From assembly GCA_003134785.1 (NCBI GenBank), contig PLCN01000021.1, positions 255,784 to 319,783 of the forward strand: a stretch of 64,000 nucleotides of DNA, in the 5' to 3' direction. This stretch comes from Spartobacteria bacterium. GTDB lineage: Bacteria > Verrucomicrobiota > Verrucomicrobiia > Chthoniobacterales > UBA10450. Shown here piece after piece: positions 29,864 to 35,938 of this stretch. The translations under genes and the position numbers were made by a program. The notes under the pieces are model-generated. The model had not been told where the DNA came from, made no database searches, and worked only from the letters and a program-made list of their open reading frames with translations. How positions within the stretch are numbered: the stretch's first letter is position 1; each line of letters opens with the position of its first letter.

Positions 29864-31573
29864 GTGACTTGGACACAAGTTTATGATCCTTTGGGGTATT
29901 GGTGGCTTTCGACGCTGCTCGCAGCGTTGCCGATCATTGTTCTCTTAGGGCTGCTGGCGGGGTTCAAGGTGCAGCCTCATCTGTGTGCTATCGCCGGGGC
30001 AGCGACCGCCGTGCTCGTGGCCATCATCGCTTTCCAGATGCCGGCCTTGCTCGCAGTCAGCAGTTTCTTTTACGGCTCGGCCTTCGGTTTGCTGAAAATC
30101 GTCTGGATCGTGGTCGCCGCGGTTTTTCTCTACGATATTTCCGTCGAGACCGGCCAATTCGAAATCATGAAGCAGTCGGTCGCGGCCATCACGCCGGACC
30201 GGCGTTTGCAACTCTTGCTCGTGGCGTTCTGCTTCGGCGCGTTCATTGAAGGGTGTGCGGGGTTCGGCGCGCCAGTGGCCATCGCCGGCGCTTTCATGAT
30301 CGGACTAGGTTTCAAGCCGTTCCAGGCCGCGGTCCTGAATCTGATTGCCAATACTTCGCCGGTGGCCTGGGGCGCCATCGGCACGCCCGTTCACACCCTG
30401 GCGGCCGTGACCGCGCTGAATGAGAGCGATCTCAACGCGATGATCGGGCGCATCCTTCCGATCACGGCGCTGATCGTTCCCTTCTGGCTGGTGCGGACCA
30501 TGGTAAGTTGGAAAGAAACGTTCGAGGTCTTTCCCGCGATCCTCGTTGTCGGCGGTTCTTTCGCCGCGACAGAATGGTTCTGGGCCAATCATATGGACAG
30601 CAACCTGGTAAATATTTCCGCGGGTATCGCGTCGCTCGCCGCGACGATGCTCTTTCTACGCGTCTGGCGACCAAAAACAATCTGGCGATTCCCCGACGAA
30701 GCTGCCGTGAGTGCATCCTCCCCGAGTGCCTCCGTCAAACATTACTCCGCCGGACAAACCGCGAAGGCGTGGATGCCTTTCCTGATCCTGTCGATCTTCG
30801 TTTTGTGCTGGGGACTTCCCTCGATCAAGAACGCCCTTAACCAGGCGACCACTCCTGCGTTCAAAGTAGTAATGGCCGATGGTAAGCCGCGCCCCGGTCC
30901 AGCCGGGTGGGATTGGCCGTATCTCCACGGAAAAATTTCGCGAACGATCCCTGTCGTAACCAAGCCAACCACTGAAGCAGCCCGCTTCGATTTCAACTGG
31001 CTGACTGCCACGGGAACTGGTTGCTTCCTTGCCGCAATCCTGGCTGGACTTCTACTCCGGCTCGGCTTCGGCCGGATGTTTGGCATCTTCGGCAAGACTG
31101 TCATGCGATTGCGATTCGCCATCATCGCGATGACTTGCATGCTAGGTCTAGGTTATGTGACGCGTTACTCGGGCATGGACGCCGTGCTAGGGCTGGCCTT
31201 CACGCGGACTGGCTGGTTCTTTCCGTTCTTCGGCACCTACATCGGATGGCTGGGCGTTGCGCTCACCGGCAGCGACACTTCGTCGAACGCCCTTTTCGGA
31301 AGCTTGCAAAAAATGACGGCGCAGCAGCTCAATCTCAGTCCTATTCTCATGTGCGCCACCAATAGCGCCGGAGGCGTGATGGGCAAGATGGTTGACGCGC
31401 AATCAATTTGCATTGCCACGGCCGCCACCAATCAAGTAGGGAACGAAGGCTCCATTTTCCGCTTCCTGTTCTGGCACTCCGTGGCGCTTGCGGCCATCGT
31501 CGGGATCATCGTGATGATGTATGCCTACGTTTTCCCGCAATACATTCCCAATGGTTTGAACTTCATCCATTAA
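29864..31573 (+). CDS. lctP: L-lactate permease (LctP family)
   Basis: A 569-residue inner-membrane lactate/glycolate:proton symporter. The GTG start fits MTWTQVYDPLGYWWLSTLLA, the usual N terminus of the family. Twelve to fourteen helices are visible, with the conserved FGAFIEGCAGFGAPVAIAGA (around 125), NTSPVAWGAIGTPV and, near the end, LTGSDTSSNALFGSLQ and SAGGVMGKMVDAQSICIA. Length matches LctP/LldP. It is transcribed alone: no lactate dehydrogenase gene is adjacent. The 259 bases upstream contain no other gene that I can support and presumably carry its promoter. Confidence 0.92.
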   Translation: MTWTQVYDPLGYWWLSTLLAALPIIVLLGLLAGFKVQPHLCAIAGAATAVLVAIIAFQMPALLAVSSFFYGSAFGLLKIVWIVVAAVFLYDISVETGQFEIMKQSVAAITPDRRLQLLLVAFCFGAFIEGCAGFGAPVAIAGAFMIGLGFKPFQAAVLNLIANTSPVAWGAIGTPVHTLAAVTALNESDLNAMIGRILPITALIVPFWLVRTMVSWKETFEVFPAILVVGGSFAATEWFWANHMDSNLVNISAGIASLAATMLFLRVWRPKTIWRFPDEAAVSASSPSASVKHYSAGQTAKAWMPFLILSIFVLCWGLPSIKNALNQATTPAFKVVMADGKPRPGPAGWDWPYLHGKISRTIPVVTKPTTEAARFDFNWLTATGTGCFLAAILAGLLLRLGFGRMFGIFGKTVMRLRFAIIAMTCMLGLGYVTRYSGMDAVLGLAFTRTGWFFPFFGTYIGWLGVALTGSDTSSNALFGSLQKMTAQQLNLSPILMCATNSAGGVMGKMVDAQSICIATAATNQVGNEGSIFRFLFWHSVALAAIVGIIVMMYAYVFPQYIPNGLNFIH

Positions 31574-31732
31574 TGGCGCACCGCCGAGCCAATCCCCCGG
31601 CTTCCGGCACGGTGCCTTAACCCGAAGACACTGCTTCCGCAGAGGGGATCCAACTCCCCCTCCGTTTTCTATTGTTGGATTCGGTCCGATCCGATAGGAT
31701 CGCCGTTATGTCCGGTTCCCCCTCGCAAGAAC

Positions 31733-31778
31733 CCTTAACCGCCGAAATAGGCGAACATTCGTCTAATTCTCGTTAGGT
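31733..31778 (+). other. attC-like site 0 (degenerate, upstream of first cassette)
   Basis: CCTTAAC (31733-31739, one mismatch to RYYYAAC), a short CGCC/GGCG stem and then TTCTCGTTAGGT (GTTAGGT at 31772-31778 matches GTTRRRY). The 3' end resembles that of the four better sites in the array. It would be the boundary of the first cassette or the remnant of attI or of a lost cassette. Confidence 0.45.
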
Positions 31779-31801
31779 CTCAACGCCACCGCTCATAAAT
31801 T

Positions 31802-32317
31802 ATGGCCAAACCATTTGGAACCCCTATTACAAAATGTCCGAAGTGCGGCGCTGCTATCGGCGACGCTCATCCTTACACTTGGTGCGTCGAATGCGGGGAA
31901 CCTCTGCCACAGAACACGCTCGACGAGTTGTCGTCCAGACGAGAAAAAACGGAATCCGTCGCTCATCCAGCGAATCCGTCGGATCCGGTGCACCGCGTTC
32001 GCGATGCTGTCAGGCGTTACACTGACGGTTACACTGTCGCTAGAGCTGTGGACGGCAGCGGCGACATCGTAAAAGTTGTCGGCATTGTTTTTGGAGTTCT
32101 CGTTGCTCTTCTCGGATTTCTGGTCGCCGCAAACACGAGCGCCGCATTCGGGTTCGCCGGGCTTGCTTTCGGCGCAGGAGTCGCGATTCCGCTTTACGTG
32201 CTCGGCACGTTGCTCTCAGCGGTGGGCCAACTTCTCAAGGCGACGCTTGACACCGCTGTTCACACATCTCCTTTCCTTGATGACCAGCAAAAAGCTAGTG
32301 CTATGTCGCTCAAATGA
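31802..32317 (+). CDS. Cassette gene 1: zinc-ribbon membrane protein
   Basis: A 171-residue protein. An N-terminal zinc ribbon (KCPKCGAAIGDAHPYTWCVE then CGEPLP) is followed by a charged linker, and two hydrophobic segments lie around residues 90-110 (VVGIVFGVLVALLGFLVAA) and 115-140. I do not recognise a specific family; zinc-ribbon/transmembrane proteins of this build are common and uncharacterised. It is the first of six short same-strand genes spaced by attC-like sites, and its stop (32315-32317) is one base before the RYYYAAC box of site 1, as expected for a compact cassette. Confidence 0.75.
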   Translation: MAKPFGTPITKCPKCGAAIGDAHPYTWCVECGEPLPQNTLDELSSRREKTESVAHPANPSDPVHRVRDAVRRYTDGYTVARAVDGSGDIVKVVGIVFGVLVALLGFLVAANTSAAFGFAGLAFGAGVAIPLYVLGTLLSAVGQLLKATLDTAVHTSPFLDDQQKASAMSLK

Positions 32318-32318
32318 G

Positions 32319-32441
32319 ACTTAACCAATCGCTCCAGCGAACCGCTGGCCGTTCCGACATTTCGCACAAGATTATGAAAACACCTGCATTGCAATCCGCG
32401 CTCGGTCCCGCCAGCGGTCGCTGAGCTCTTTCTCGTTAGGC
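32319..32441 (+). other. attC-like site 1
   Basis: ACTTAAC (32319-32325) matches RYYYAAC and GTTAGGC (32435-32441) matches GTTRRRY. Between them CGCTCCAGCGAACCGCTGGC pairs with GCCAGCGGTCGCTGAGC (about 32409-32425) with the usual unpaired bases. The length of 123 bases is in the range of attC sites. Confidence 0.7.
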
Positions 32442-32458
32442 GGCACTACGCGCACTTT

Positions 32459-32869
32459 ATGAATTGGCAACTTCTCGGACCACTCCTCATCACCACCGTT
32501 GTTGCGGCTGGTGGTTGGTTCGTTGGTCATGCTCTCACTGCTCGACGCGACCGAGCGAACAAGAGGCGAGAGCAGCGCGTTGGTTATCTCATCGAGGCTT
32601 ACCGACGGTTGGAGTCATCCGCACATCGTCGAGACCAGTTGGACGCCTCCAAGTTCGAGTCAGCAGTTGCAGACATCCAGCTTTTTGGAACAGCCCGACA
32701 GGTTGAGTTGGTTCAGGCGTTGATTACCGAGATCGCCGCCGGAGGCGGCGCAATGATGGACGACCTGATTCAGGATTTGCGCCGTGACCTGAGAACCGAG
32801 TTACGATTACAGTCCGTGCCCGACCGAGTTCTACATTTACGCATACGCAATGACAACCGTGCCGCCTAA
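32459..32869 (+). CDS. Cassette gene 2: small membrane-anchored protein
   Basis: A 136-residue protein with one N-terminal helix (LLGPLLITTVVAAGGWFVGH) followed by a basic segment (ARRDRANKRREQR) and an amphipathic helical domain (VGYLIEAYRRLESSAHRRDQ). Proteins with this layout, a single helix plus RRDxANKRRExRxxYLIxAYRxLE, are familiar from integron cassettes of other bacteria; their function is unknown. The stop codon TAA lies inside the RYYYAAC box of site 2, as is often seen in cassettes. It starts 18 bases after site 1. Confidence 0.75.
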   Translation: MNWQLLGPLLITTVVAAGGWFVGHALTARRDRANKRREQRVGYLIEAYRRLESSAHRRDQLDASKFESAVADIQLFGTARQVELVQALITEIAAGGGAMMDDLIQDLRRDLRTELRLQSVPDRVLHLRIRNDNRAA

Positions 32870-32914
32870 CCGCGCTCGCTCCGGTAGCCGTCGCTGATCT
32901 TATTCTCGTTAGGC
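32864..32914 (+). other. attC-like site 2 (short)
   Basis: GCCTAAC (32864-32870) and GTTAGGC (32908-32914) are perfect inverse core boxes. TCGCTCCGG and CCGTCGCTGA form the internal stem. At 51 bases it is near the lower limit for attC sites. Confidence 0.7.
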
Positions 32915-32936
32915 TGCTGTCGCATTTCCGTAAACC

Positions 32937-33332
32937 ATGACAACCGAGCTTCGATTTCTAGCGGCCACGGTGATTCTGGGACTCTTGCACCTGATCGCGG
33001 ACTCCCATCTCATCAGCTCTCAGCTCGGCTATCGCTGGACAGCCAGTAGCCGGGAGCAGCCCGCTCCCCCATTGCGCGGGGTCGCAAACCGAGTGGATCA
33101 GGCGTACACCAACTTCATGGAAACTTTTCCTTTCTTCGCTGCCGTCGTTTTGGCAGCCCATCTCGCTGACCGCCACGGTGCGTTGACCTTGTGGGGAGTA
33201 CAGCTCTACTTCTGGGGACGAGTAGGCTACGTCTTGGCCGCCGCGGCCGGCTTCGGGCTAGTACGCTCAATCGTGTTCTTTAACACAGCTCTAAGCGGCA
33301 TCGCCCTTTTTCTCATCACCCTTCTATGCTAG
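32937..33332 (+). CDS. Cassette gene 3: MAPEG-family protein
   Basis: A 131-residue integral membrane protein with four helices. The blocks RVDQAYTNFMETFPFFAAVV and LYFWGRVGYVLAAAAGFGLV match the MAPEG family (membrane-associated proteins in eicosanoid and glutathione metabolism), which in bacteria are glutathione-transferase-like or of unknown role. The RxxxNxxE element (RVDQAYTNFMET, with Asn and Glu) is present. As a cassette-borne gene it may serve detoxification. It is flanked by attC-like sites 2 and 3. Confidence 0.8.
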   Translation: MTTELRFLAATVILGLLHLIADSHLISSQLGYRWTASSREQPAPPLRGVANRVDQAYTNFMETFPFFAAVVLAAHLADRHGALTLWGVQLYFWGRVGYVLAAAAGFGLVRSIVFFNTALSGIALFLITLLC

Positions 33333-33348
33333 TTCTGTTACATCCGCC

Positions 33349-33416
33349 TCCTAATCAATCGCGATACAGCGAACTCCGAAAGCAATCGGAGTCGCTGATC
33401 CTATTCTTCGTTAGGC
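33349..33416 (+). other. attC-like site 3
   Basis: GTTAGGC at 33410-33416 is perfect; the left box TCCTAAT (33349-33355) is degenerate. Inside, CAGCGAACTCCGA and TCGGAGTCGCTGA (33367-33398) form a strong stem with an extrahelical base and a six-base loop. Confidence 0.65.
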
Positions 33417-33455
33417 CTAGCCTCATGGACGGGCCATGGAAATTAATAGTGCGAA

Positions 33456-33875
33456 ATGAGAAGTATGATGTTCGCGATCAAAGCCGAGGTTAGCGATCCG
33501 TGCGCAGATACGTTCGCGTTCAGCACGCAGAAGACGATGTATGGTGGCAAGCAGATCGCCAGAGGCGATACGATCTTTGTCTTCGCGAGCGAGAACGAAG
33601 GTGGGCCAGGTCTCATCGCGAATGGGGTCGTCACCTCAGCCAAAGCGATCGCAAAAAAACCCGGAGTCGCCCGGCAAACGCCGCGCGTGAGCATCACCAT
33701 CAAACGCACCGCGCTCGCCCAGCGGCGCCTGGGGCGGAGCGAACTCAAACTTTTTTCCAACTGGAACGACGATCGGCGCGAGACCGAGCTCAATTTCAAA
33801 GTCTATCGTCAGGCAACGAACAAGATCGTCGGCATCTCGGATGAAGCGGCGGCCTTCCTCCGCGGATTCTTTTGA
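33456..33875 (+). CDS. Cassette gene 4: uncharacterised protein, possibly PUA-like
   Basis: A 139-residue soluble protein. IARGDTIFVFASENEGGPGL followed by IANGVVTSAKAI recalls the beta-strand core of PUA/ASCH/EVE-type nucleic-acid-binding folds, but I cannot assign a family. The C terminus reads NKIVGISDEAAAFLRGFF. It has neither signal peptide nor membrane helix. It lies between attC-like sites 3 and 4 in the same orientation as the other cassette genes. Confidence 0.6.
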   Translation: MRSMMFAIKAEVSDPCADTFAFSTQKTMYGGKQIARGDTIFVFASENEGGPGLIANGVVTSAKAIAKKPGVARQTPRVSITIKRTALAQRRLGRSELKLFSNWNDDRRETELNFKVYRQATNKIVGISDEAAAFLRGFF

Positions 33876-33910
33876 CCCGGCCGATTTTCGACATGAAAAC
33901 TCCCGGCCAG

Positions 33911-33979
33911 CACTAAGATGACGCAGCGAACTCCGAAGGCATTCGTGTGCAGACTCGCTGAGCCTGGATCTCGTTAGGC
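33911..33979 (+). other. attC-like site 4
   Basis: GTTAGGC at 33973-33979 is perfect, while the left box around 33911 is degenerate. CAGCGAACTCCGAAGGCATT and GACTCGCTGAG make the stem. The left half is nearly the same as that of sites 3 and 5, so these three sites are a related group. Confidence 0.55.
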
Positions 33980-34008
33980 GGCTTCTGCCGGAGAGAGCGA
34001 AACGACCG

Positions 34009-34471
34009 ATGACCAGGAAAACAAAGGCTATTCTCACTCTCTCGGGAGTCGGGCTTTTGCTGGCCGTGGGATTGGCTACCTATCTCCTGGTATTTAGCGA
34101 TTGGCCAGGCGGGATGCGCCCAACCTACGTTGCGGCCGACTACGATGCTCGCCTCACCCGAGAGGCAGCTACCGCGATGCCGCTTATTGCCGCACTCAAC
34201 CAACTACCACGATGAGCATGCCGGCTTTCCCGCGCATGCGGCGGACTTCATTGCCTATCTTGTCAGCGCATCTCCGCGGCCACTTACAGCTAGCACCGAT
34301 GAGATACTTGGCTGGCGCTACGCGCAAGGCGAGAAAGGCGTTAGTTATATTCTTTCTCGCAAGCTCGGTTGAGACGCGTCTTTGCGGTACCATTATGATG
34401 CATCTCGGACACGCTGGGTATTTGATCCCGGCGACGGAACGCCTGAGAAGACCGTTATCCTGAAGCCATGA
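34009..34471 (+). pseudogene. Cassette gene 5: unknown membrane-anchored protein, broken
   Basis: Two frames joined near 34200 and one read-through of a TGA (34370-34372) yield a single sensible protein. It has an N-terminal helix (AILTLSGVGLLLAVGLATYL), then YVAADYDARLTREAATAMP, YHDEHAGFPAHAADFIAYLV, ILGWRYAQGEKGVSYILSRK, and after the stop DASLRYHYDASRTRWVFDPG. In the family position of the TGA a Trp is expected (LGWDASLRY). The lesions are one frameshift and one nonsense change. I do not know the family; it has an extracellular or periplasmic domain of about 120 residues. Assembly error remains possible. Confidence 0.55.
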
Positions 34472-34481
34472 ATACGATTTC

Positions 34482-34605
34482 ACCAAACGGAGCGAACTCC
34501 GAAGGCATTCGCGCGCTAGCTCGCTGACGGCGTATTAATCCTGAAAGATGAAAGGAGACGAAAGCTCGTTCTCGGCGGCCGTCACTGACCTTGTTTTCGT
34601 TAGAC
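34482..34605 (+). other. attC-like site 5
   Basis: ACCAAAC (34482-34488, one mismatch to RYYYAAC) and GTTAGAC (34599-34605) are inverse boxes; AGCGAACTCCGAAGGCATT and AGCTCGCTGA form an inner stem. The 124-base length resembles site 1. Confidence 0.5.
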
Positions 34606-34630: not shown

Positions 34631-35038
34631 ATGACTGCGCAAGACGTGGCCGAGCAATTCGTTACCGCGATCAACGCACATGACGTGGAACGGCTTGTCT
34701 CGCTCATGACATCAGATCATCGCTTCATTGATTCGCTCGGCGCGGCGGTAGAAGGCCGCGACGCCATGCGCGAAGGCTGGAAGTTCTACTTCGACATGGT
34801 CCCTGATTATCATCTCGAGATTCGCAGCTTTTTTATCCCGGAGGATGGCAGAGCTGAGGCGATGCTCGCAGGCGTGGCGAGTGGCTCGTACTGGTCGAAT
34901 GGAATCAAGCGACCAGATTCCTCATGGAGCGCGCCGGCCGCTTTGCGGGCTCTCGTCCGCGACGGCCAGATTGCCGAGTGGCAGGTCTACGCAGATAACG
35001 AACCGATCCGCGAGCAAATGCGCGCTGCCTCGGTCTGA
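34631..35038 (+). CDS. Cassette gene 6: NTF2/SnoaL-like protein
   Basis: A 135-residue cone-fold protein. AQDVAEQFVTAINAHDVERL, then LMTSDHRFIDSLG, GRDAMREGWKFYFDMVPDYH and the last strand (GQIAEWQVYADNEPIREQM) follow the NTF2-like/SnoaL-like pattern. Members are isomerases, cyclases or binding proteins; substrate unknown. It is the last gene of the cassette array and is followed by a strong hairpin instead of an attC-like site, so the array ends here or the last site has been lost. Confidence 0.8.
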   Translation: MTAQDVAEQFVTAINAHDVERLVSLMTSDHRFIDSLGAAVEGRDAMREGWKFYFDMVPDYHLEIRSFFIPEDGRAEAMLAGVASGSYWSNGIKRPDSSWSAPAALRALVRDGQIAEWQVYADNEPIREQMRAASV

Positions 35039-35066
35039 CCAGGCGATGCAAGCGGTTCGGCAACGG

Positions 35067-35097
35067 AAAGCCCGCCGGGGAGAAGCCGGCGGGCTTT
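35067..35097. terminator. Bidirectional hairpin terminator
   Basis: A perfect 12-base stem (AAAGCCCGCCGG and CCGGCGGGCTTT) with a 7-base loop lies between the cassette array (plus) and pstS (minus). A/T flanks on both sides let it end transcripts from both directions. Confidence 0.85.
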
Positions 35098-35125
35098 CGC
35101 TTTAACCTAACCGCGTTGTCGCGTC

Positions 35126-35938
35126 TTACGGAATTGGAACGAAGCCGACTTGAGCCACGATCTTCTGGCCGGCGCCGCTGATGGTGAAATCGAGGAACTG
35201 TTTCGCGAGTCCGGTCGCATCGCCGTTGGTGTAATAGAAGGTAGGACGCGCGTAGGGATAGGTCTTTGCGTGCACGGTCTGCACGGAAGGCAGCACGCCA
35301 TCGATCGACATCACTTTGATGCCGCCCGCCTTGGTATAAGCGAGACCGACGTAGCCGATGCCGTTGGCGTTCTTGCCTACTTCGGCGGCGATCTGCTCGT
35401 TGCCGGCCATCTTCTGCGAGCCGCCCGCGTAGTCGCGCTTCTTCATCGCCAGCTCCTTGAAGTCGGAGTAGGTGCCGGAGGAAGTGTTACGGGTGTAGAG
35501 CGAAATCTTGCCACCCGAACCTCCCACCGCGCTCCAGTCGGTTACTTCGCCGGTGAAGATTTGTTCGACCTGCTTCTTGGTCAGGCTCTTGATCGGGTTC
35601 GCCGAATTCACGATCACAGCGATGCCGTCGTAGGCCACGATGGTCGGTTTCATGTGCACCCCTTTGGCGGAAGCCGCGCCGATCTCGGCGGGTTTCGCCC
35701 GGCGGCTGGCCATGCCGATTTGCGCGGTGCCATCGATGATCGCCGCGATGCCGGTGGTGGAACCTTCGGCCGCGATGTCGAAGGTAGTGCCGGGATGCTG
35801 CGCTTTGAATTGCTCCGCGAGCTGCGGCACCAGTTTCGCGCCGAGCGTATCGGAGCCTTTGATGACGAGCTTCTCGGCGCGCGCCTCCGCAGAAAGGAAG
35901 GCGAGGCCGAGTGCCAAGGCGAGGTGAGTGATTTTCAT
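35126..35938 (-). CDS. pstS: Phosphate ABC transporter substrate-binding protein PstS
   Basis: A 270-residue periplasmic phosphate-binding protein. A signal peptide of about 21 residues (ITHLALALGLAFLSAEARA) precedes KLVIKGSDTLGAKLVPQLAE. Phosphate-contacting loops are visible in GSDT, AEGSTTGIAAIIDG, ASRRAKPAE and NTSSGTYSDFKELAM. It is shorter than E. coli PstS but of the usual PstS_2/PBP-like size. It is the last gene of the minus-strand phosphate locus, 36 bases after the porin gene, so it is likely transcribed with that gene from the Pho-box promoter at 37.5 kb. PstS is separate from pstCAB. Confidence 0.93.
   Translation of the reverse strand: MKITHLALALGLAFLSAEARAEKLVIKGSDTLGAKLVPQLAEQFKAQHPGTTFDIAAEGSTTGIAAIIDGTAQIGMASRRAKPAEIGAASAKGVHMKPTIVAYDGIAVIVNSANPIKSLTKKQVEQIFTGEVTDWSAVGGSGGKISLYTRNTSSGTYSDFKELAMKKRDYAGGSQKMAGNEQIAAEVGKNANGIGYVGLAYTKAGGIKVMSIDGVLPSVQTVHAKTYPYARPTFYYTNGDATGLAKQFLDFTISGAGQKIVAQVGFVPIP

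Follow-up and report, generated by a model that had tools for sequence, protein, structure and literature searches.

How does an array of integron cassettes come to stand in a chromosome with no integrase beside it? The question is raised by positions 31733–34605 of a 64,000-nucleotide stretch of DNA from a Spartobacteria bacterium (the window, in what follows), where a preliminary description, made from the letters alone, recognized six short plus-strand genes accompanied by attC-like sites and assigned them to a cluster of attC sites lacking an integrase (CALIN). Formally the assignment holds, as three attC sites are found at E<1e-3 and the 64 kb contain no integrase gene (intI), a CALIN being defined by at least two attC sites with no integrase nearby. 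The array opens, however, with an attI site and a promoter-like sequence, which points to the remnant of a platform and not to a stray cluster. The region is read here, with a probability of roughly four in five, as a decayed chromosomal integron platform—cassette promoter (Pc), attI, and cassettes—from which the integrase has been lost.

The evidence that carries this reading lies at the head of the array. The first of the sites in the preliminary description, 31733–31778, had been counted as a degenerate attC, but it was ruled out as such with a score of only 10.6 bits (E 1.3) under the attC covariance model (R1, described below). An attI model (R2), for which 20 sites next to intI were used and the window was left out, instead places an attI at 31739–31779 on the plus strand with 27.9 bits (E 1.5e-7), the sole R2 match in the 64 kb; this model uses sequence only and will miss divergent attI sites. 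The site is 96% identical over 28 bp to the attI adjoining intI in the congener G004, and 31733–31778 resembles the DNA on the attI side of intI in relatives. The DNA in front of it (31631–31738, plus strand) is held in common with a second head on the same contig, near position 229k of C4, which has no intI either: the identity to L199:5501-5374 is 87.9% over 132 bp (E 1.4e-39), and a whole-genome DNA search aligns the same pair at 91% over 99 bp. By the established integron mechanism, an incoming cassette is joined on the right-hand side of the G|TT crossover, so the left arm of attI and the 108 bp before it are platform DNA and not part of a cassette; for this reason the array is taken for an integron remnant without intI, and not for cassettes inserted off target. 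The interior of the window attI is some 22 bp shorter than that of its sister copy, perhaps by decay there too.

The upstream part of the head also holds a candidate promoter, TTGTTG-17-TAGGAT (31672–31700, plus strand), read in the sequence and probably serving as Pc. A promoter test was run on the DNA upstream of attI, avoiding the confounding A+T-rich letters inside it, and 37 of the 64 heads had their best promoter-like site 50–90 bp ahead of the attI edge, where shuffles gave 12.4 (maximum 20), although the heads are related and do not amount to 64 independent cases. The candidate of the window stands at this favored position. The layout TTGnnn-(16 to 18)-TAnnnT recurs about 95–140 bp before the crossover in five intI-less heads from two genomes. 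The corresponding promoter-like position of divergent heads linked to intI falls within the first codons of that gene. T-arm-like letters before the head raised the idea of a tRNA relic, which was rejected when neither ARAGORN nor Rfam found a tRNA; Rfam scans of the window gave nothing above curated thresholds.

The window corresponds to C4:255784-319783 in a draft genome of 4.39 Mb and 25 contigs, and the array occupies the interval between the end of the lactate permease gene (lctP) at 31573 and pstS (35126–35938, minus strand). All the genomes compared are drafts, mostly metagenome-assembled genomes (MAGs), and since arrays break assemblies, the counts given here are approximate. The R1 model was trained on 43 sites of related arrays that mostly adjoin intI, again with the window excluded, drawn from the intI-adjacent arrays on contigs C10 and C22 of the same genome and from many more arrays in relatives; a few of these sites share a contig with intI and are not directly beside it, and one (L158) belongs to an array with only a partial intI match. 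The two stems of the R1 alignment covary, with 96% of cells paired and 113 cells showing two-sided changes, where shuffles gave 39; controls with a slid pairing score far lower than the true one. Integron integrases were recognized by the family cut-off of TIGR02249.

Behind the head, R'-like boxes stand exactly where the preliminary description had them, at 31772 (GTTAGGT), at 32435, 32908, 33410, and 33973 (GTTAGGC), and at 34599 (GTTAGAC), and the spacing to the next start codon that it noted is present, although it runs from 24 to 46 bases and not from 20 to 40. Allowing up to three mismatches, TTCTCGTTAGGC occurs 77 times in the 64 kb against 52.5 expected, so that the boxes alone are only mildly above chance, and whole sites were therefore tested. 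Five attC sites remain once the attI is set aside, all on the plus strand, of which R1 accepts three at E<1e-3 within 1.1 kb; full sites are thus far beyond chance. Site 1 (32319–32441; 111.8 bits, E 6.6e-28) has the intact 123-nt form and over 127 bp reaches 89.8% identity with the attC at C22:1996-2118, in the integrase-linked array of the same genome. Site 2 (32864–32914; 25.0 bits, E 1.7e-4), which takes in the stop codon of its gene, as had been pointed out, is in addition internally deleted and lacks the left inner arm (L''); over 42 bp it matches, at 97.6% identity, the 3' half of an attC that G004 carries in its intI-linked array. Site 3 (33349–33416; 38.2 bits, E 4.8e-8) is of a short 66/68-nt form with TCCTAAT as R'', a form that also occurs on an intI-bearing contig of G016 (L160:9918-9983). 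The two remaining sites are weak and are reached only with filters off: site 4 (33910–33979; 8.8 bits), a decayed short form with CAGCGAACTCCGAAGGCATTCG-like letters in common with sites 3 and 5, and site 5 (34477–34605; 13.5 bits), also decayed and resembling two merged half sites. Folding of the bottom strands, a check suggested in the preliminary description, agrees with these scores. Sites 1 and 3 form more stable folds than their shuffles (z −2.4 and −3.2) and show the inverse boxes, two stems, unpaired spacer, and extrahelical bases of an attC, whereas site 2 (z −0.4), which has no stable hairpin, retains this architecture only in part, owing to its deletion, and sites 4 and 5 (z −0.2 and 0.1) lack it; none of these three folds better than shuffles. 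Three of the five attC sites, 2, 4, and 5, therefore show decay.

The absence of an integrase from the 64 kb, also noted beforehand, is borne out by the lack of any TIGR02249 match in the window, so that attI stands at the head of the array with no intI beside it, where a complete integron would have one. The nearest real copies are on C10 and C22, and both are damaged. The C10 copy (C10:4543-5484; intI region L017:4462-5490) matches TIGR02249 with 465 bits and is interrupted by one in-frame TGA, which may be an assembly error in this draft genome, at a codon that is TGG in the near-identical C22 copy; the latter has a frameshift and is cut short. Contigs C9, C10, and C22 each begin in or at an attC, and the first 23 bases are common to C10 and C22, a longer array having probably been cut by the assembly. 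One attC of C10 (L017:532-3031) is apparently split by about 2.3 kb, with half sites kept on both sides, and the insert holds a transposase-like open reading frame (ORF) at about 680–1660 that is IS1595-like by eye only.

Over the whole genome, R2 finds seven distinct attI sites. Two adjoin the damaged intI genes, and the other five, the window's included, have no recognizable intI gene; six of the seven head an attC cluster detected by R1. An attI-like stretch at C4:183550-183590 (L211:7551-7591, minus strand) is followed by one ORF of 127 aa with no detectable attC, and is perhaps an attI platform whose cassette has lost its attC.

The R2 search was taken to 35 relatives, and intI-less platforms headed by attI are common in Spartobacteria. 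In genomes with no intI above the cut-off, there are 7 attI sites (G003), 6 (G005), 18 (G006), and at least 7 (G019), and G006 also has at least 38 attC sites. A same-strand attC lies within 1.5 kb of 38 of the 59 heads that were fetched. Across six genomes, an attC cluster is headed by 47 of the 59 attI sites (chance below 1% for each), and conversely an attI stands in front of 45 of the 84 attC clusters, in most cases with no intI. TIGR02249 matches above the cut-off occur in 28 of 58 relative genomes, alongside many fragments. Relics of the integrase gene itself are left at some heads: a profile of the 5' DNA of divergent intI detects relics at 18 of 65 intI-less heads, about a quarter, and at none of 660 random stretches, and C-terminal relics, belonging to the other orientation, are present too, as in G007:C4. 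The 5' relics at sister heads, together with the C-terminal relics of G007:C4, show that integrases have been lost in place.

A sequence of events can be proposed for the window on this basis. Integrase, acting in cis or in trans, would have brought cassettes in at attI by attC x attI recombination, leaving five of them, perhaps six, downstream of Pc and attI and read from the plus strand. The intI gene on the far side of attI would then have been deleted or eroded away, and with the integrase gone, the array would have been frozen, its cassettes still open to transcription from Pc. Decay of attC sites 2, 4, and 5, conversion of cassette 5 into a pseudogene, and the shortening of attI would have followed. 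We infer all three of its premises, namely that intI was once present here, that the promoter is active, and that no recombination takes place now. The damage to intI elsewhere in this genome (the TGA on C10, the frameshift and truncation on C22) counts in its favor. Several points weigh against it. No significant intI relic was found at the window head, and the origin of this array by loss of intI is derived from its sister heads. A comparison with an empty site yielded none, since lctP does not adjoin the pst genes in relatives. Moreover, as the genomes are drafts or MAGs, some intI copies may be absent or erroneous, the C10 TGA among them.

Three origins have been proposed for CALINs, namely off-target insertion, loss of intI, and rearrangement (PMC8618304). 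The alternative that fares best in this case is none of these, but that Pc-attI heads without intI are lasting elements that are duplicated as such, with IntI supplied in trans by intact integrons of the same cell or of the population. Heads do outnumber integrases, by the counts given for G006, G003, G005, and G019; the window head and its sister are copies of one another, neither with intI; and the first attC sites of intI-less arrays are often intact, with a median of 101 bits. Yet the first sites are not significantly better than the later ones, as a polarity of decay away from attI would have them (41 arrays, p 0.19), the intI relics at many heads point to decay, and the window array is itself mostly decayed. 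As an explanation of the window array, this is improbable. Its extension to the clade, by which the intI-less Pc-attI heads would be a maintained and duplicating non-autonomous integron, present in dozens per genome and filled in trans, is marginally more credible and still improbable; if true, the trans-acting IntI would be supplied by other cells or by a small number of intact integrons.

Much less is to be said for a rearrangement that split the array off the integron of C10 or C22. The attC sites belong to the same family, one of them at 90% identity, and contigs C9, C10, and C22 are broken off inside attC arrays. The attI sites of C10 and C22 and the DNA upstream of them, however, are near-identical to each other and unlike the window head, which speaks against a recent split, and this origin is judged quite unlikely. 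Slightly less probable again is an off-target origin, in which an integrase encoded elsewhere would have inserted a cassette by attC x attG recombination and the array would have grown by attC x attC recombination. A damaged integron with near-identical attC is indeed present in this genome, and no attI head could be detected at 5 of its 11 attC clusters (among these, the cluster on C9 begins where a contig ends); an insertion of this kind, however, would bring neither the left arm of attI nor the 108 bp of shared platform DNA with which the window array opens. Lastly, a reading of the boxes as plain terminators or dispersed palindromic repeats, which the modest excess of short GTTAGGC boxes might suggest, can be practically discounted in view of the two-arm attC architecture with its covariation, the homology to intI-adjacent arrays, and the attI at the head, the one terminator-like inverted repeat (35066–35098) lying outside the array.

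The contents of the decayed platform follow the layout of a cassette array, with one short ORF per site, which stops shortly ahead of its attC. All six genes are on the plus strand, as had been described, but one of them is a pseudogene, which leaves five ORFs. Cassette 1 (31802–32317) encodes a zinc-ribbon-like membrane protein of 171 aa, its zinc-ribbon-like N-terminus followed by hydrophobic segments, the zinc-ribbon matches in Pfam being below the cut-off only. Cassette 2 (32459–32869; 136 aa) has one hydrophobic helix, as stated earlier, at its N-terminus, and neither its protein nor that of cassette 4 (33456–33875; 139 aa) has a match in Pfam or NCBIfam. Cassette 3 (32937–33332; 131 aa) is confirmed as a membrane protein of the MAPEG family (Pfam E 2.6e-18, 66.8 bits, cut-off 23.4). 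Cassette 5 (34009–34470) is the pseudogene, to judge by its sequence, with a frameshift near 34212 and an in-frame TGA at 34370–34372: the reading passes from one ORF to another in a different frame (68 and 80 aa), and coding goes on past the TGA. No intact homologue was found among the fetched loci. A search of plasmids with the array gave no match.

The last gene (34631–35038, plus strand), SnoaL/NTF2-like as described (Pfam SnoaL_2, E 4e-14), has no attC behind it and is either the last cassette or the first flanking gene. It may be a cassette, because it is missing from the homologous flank of five congeners, in which homology begins at about 35062, and because a gene 45% identical to it sits in an attI-headed locus of G004 (L294). 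On the other side, the lctP product (29864–31573) is about 91% identical to those of congeners, the closest named relatives (91% at the protein level) being Spartobacteria MAGs from palsa soil, of the Verrucomicrobiota. The DNA homology of this gene stops within a few bases of its ends, and the relatives that follow in rank are for the most part Acidobacteria. The lactate permease gene of G006 and G007 lies downstream of an attI-headed array.

Compared with known systems, the window array shares with CALINs, which occur about as often as complete integrons (PMC9024848), tandem attC-bounded cassettes with no integrase nearby, and differs from them in opening with attI and a promoter-like sequence. 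Because IntegronFinder seeks no attI beyond class 1, attI being poorly described (PMC9024848), attI-headed and headless CALINs go undistinguished. More generally, searches for attI are rare, few integron classes having well-described sites. Decay of intI is known from Xanthomonas (PMC12444791), from Treponema phagedenis (PMC3607928), and from a survey of pseudogenes (PMC2426708), and in these cases, as here, the integrase was inactivated or lost and the cassettes were kept. Unlike them, the present genomes contain many dispersed intI-less platforms that keep their attI heads, and can hold 6–18 attI sites without any intI above the cut-off. Off-target insertions at attG, described with reference to work in E. 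coli (PMC12444791), would also put cassettes away from the main integron, but an attI arm, which the window has, is not expected there.

The inverted integrons of Treponema, in which intI is transcribed toward attI (PMC3607928), have their likeness in G004 (C24), G008, G009, and G020, where intI also points toward attI. In contrast to Treponema, both orientations occur here in one genus, and the window head resembles the divergent type. The two orientations relative to related attI sites are seen within one genus and family (L110, L114, L126, and L109 versus L100–L108). No literature on attI-headed arrays without intI in Verrucomicrobiota was found, in a search that left most subscription journals outside.

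For the clade as a whole, the attI heads argue for in-place loss of the integrase, in preference to off-target insertion, as a main origin of CALINs, and as about half of the attC clusters in the six genomes are attI-headed, such loss explains many of them. With a clade-specific attI model, the origin of a CALIN becomes a question that can be answered site by site. Genomes with many attI sites and no integrase offer a natural test of cassette exchange in trans, and these enzyme-less copies, many of them in related soil bacteria, help to show how headless arrays arise.

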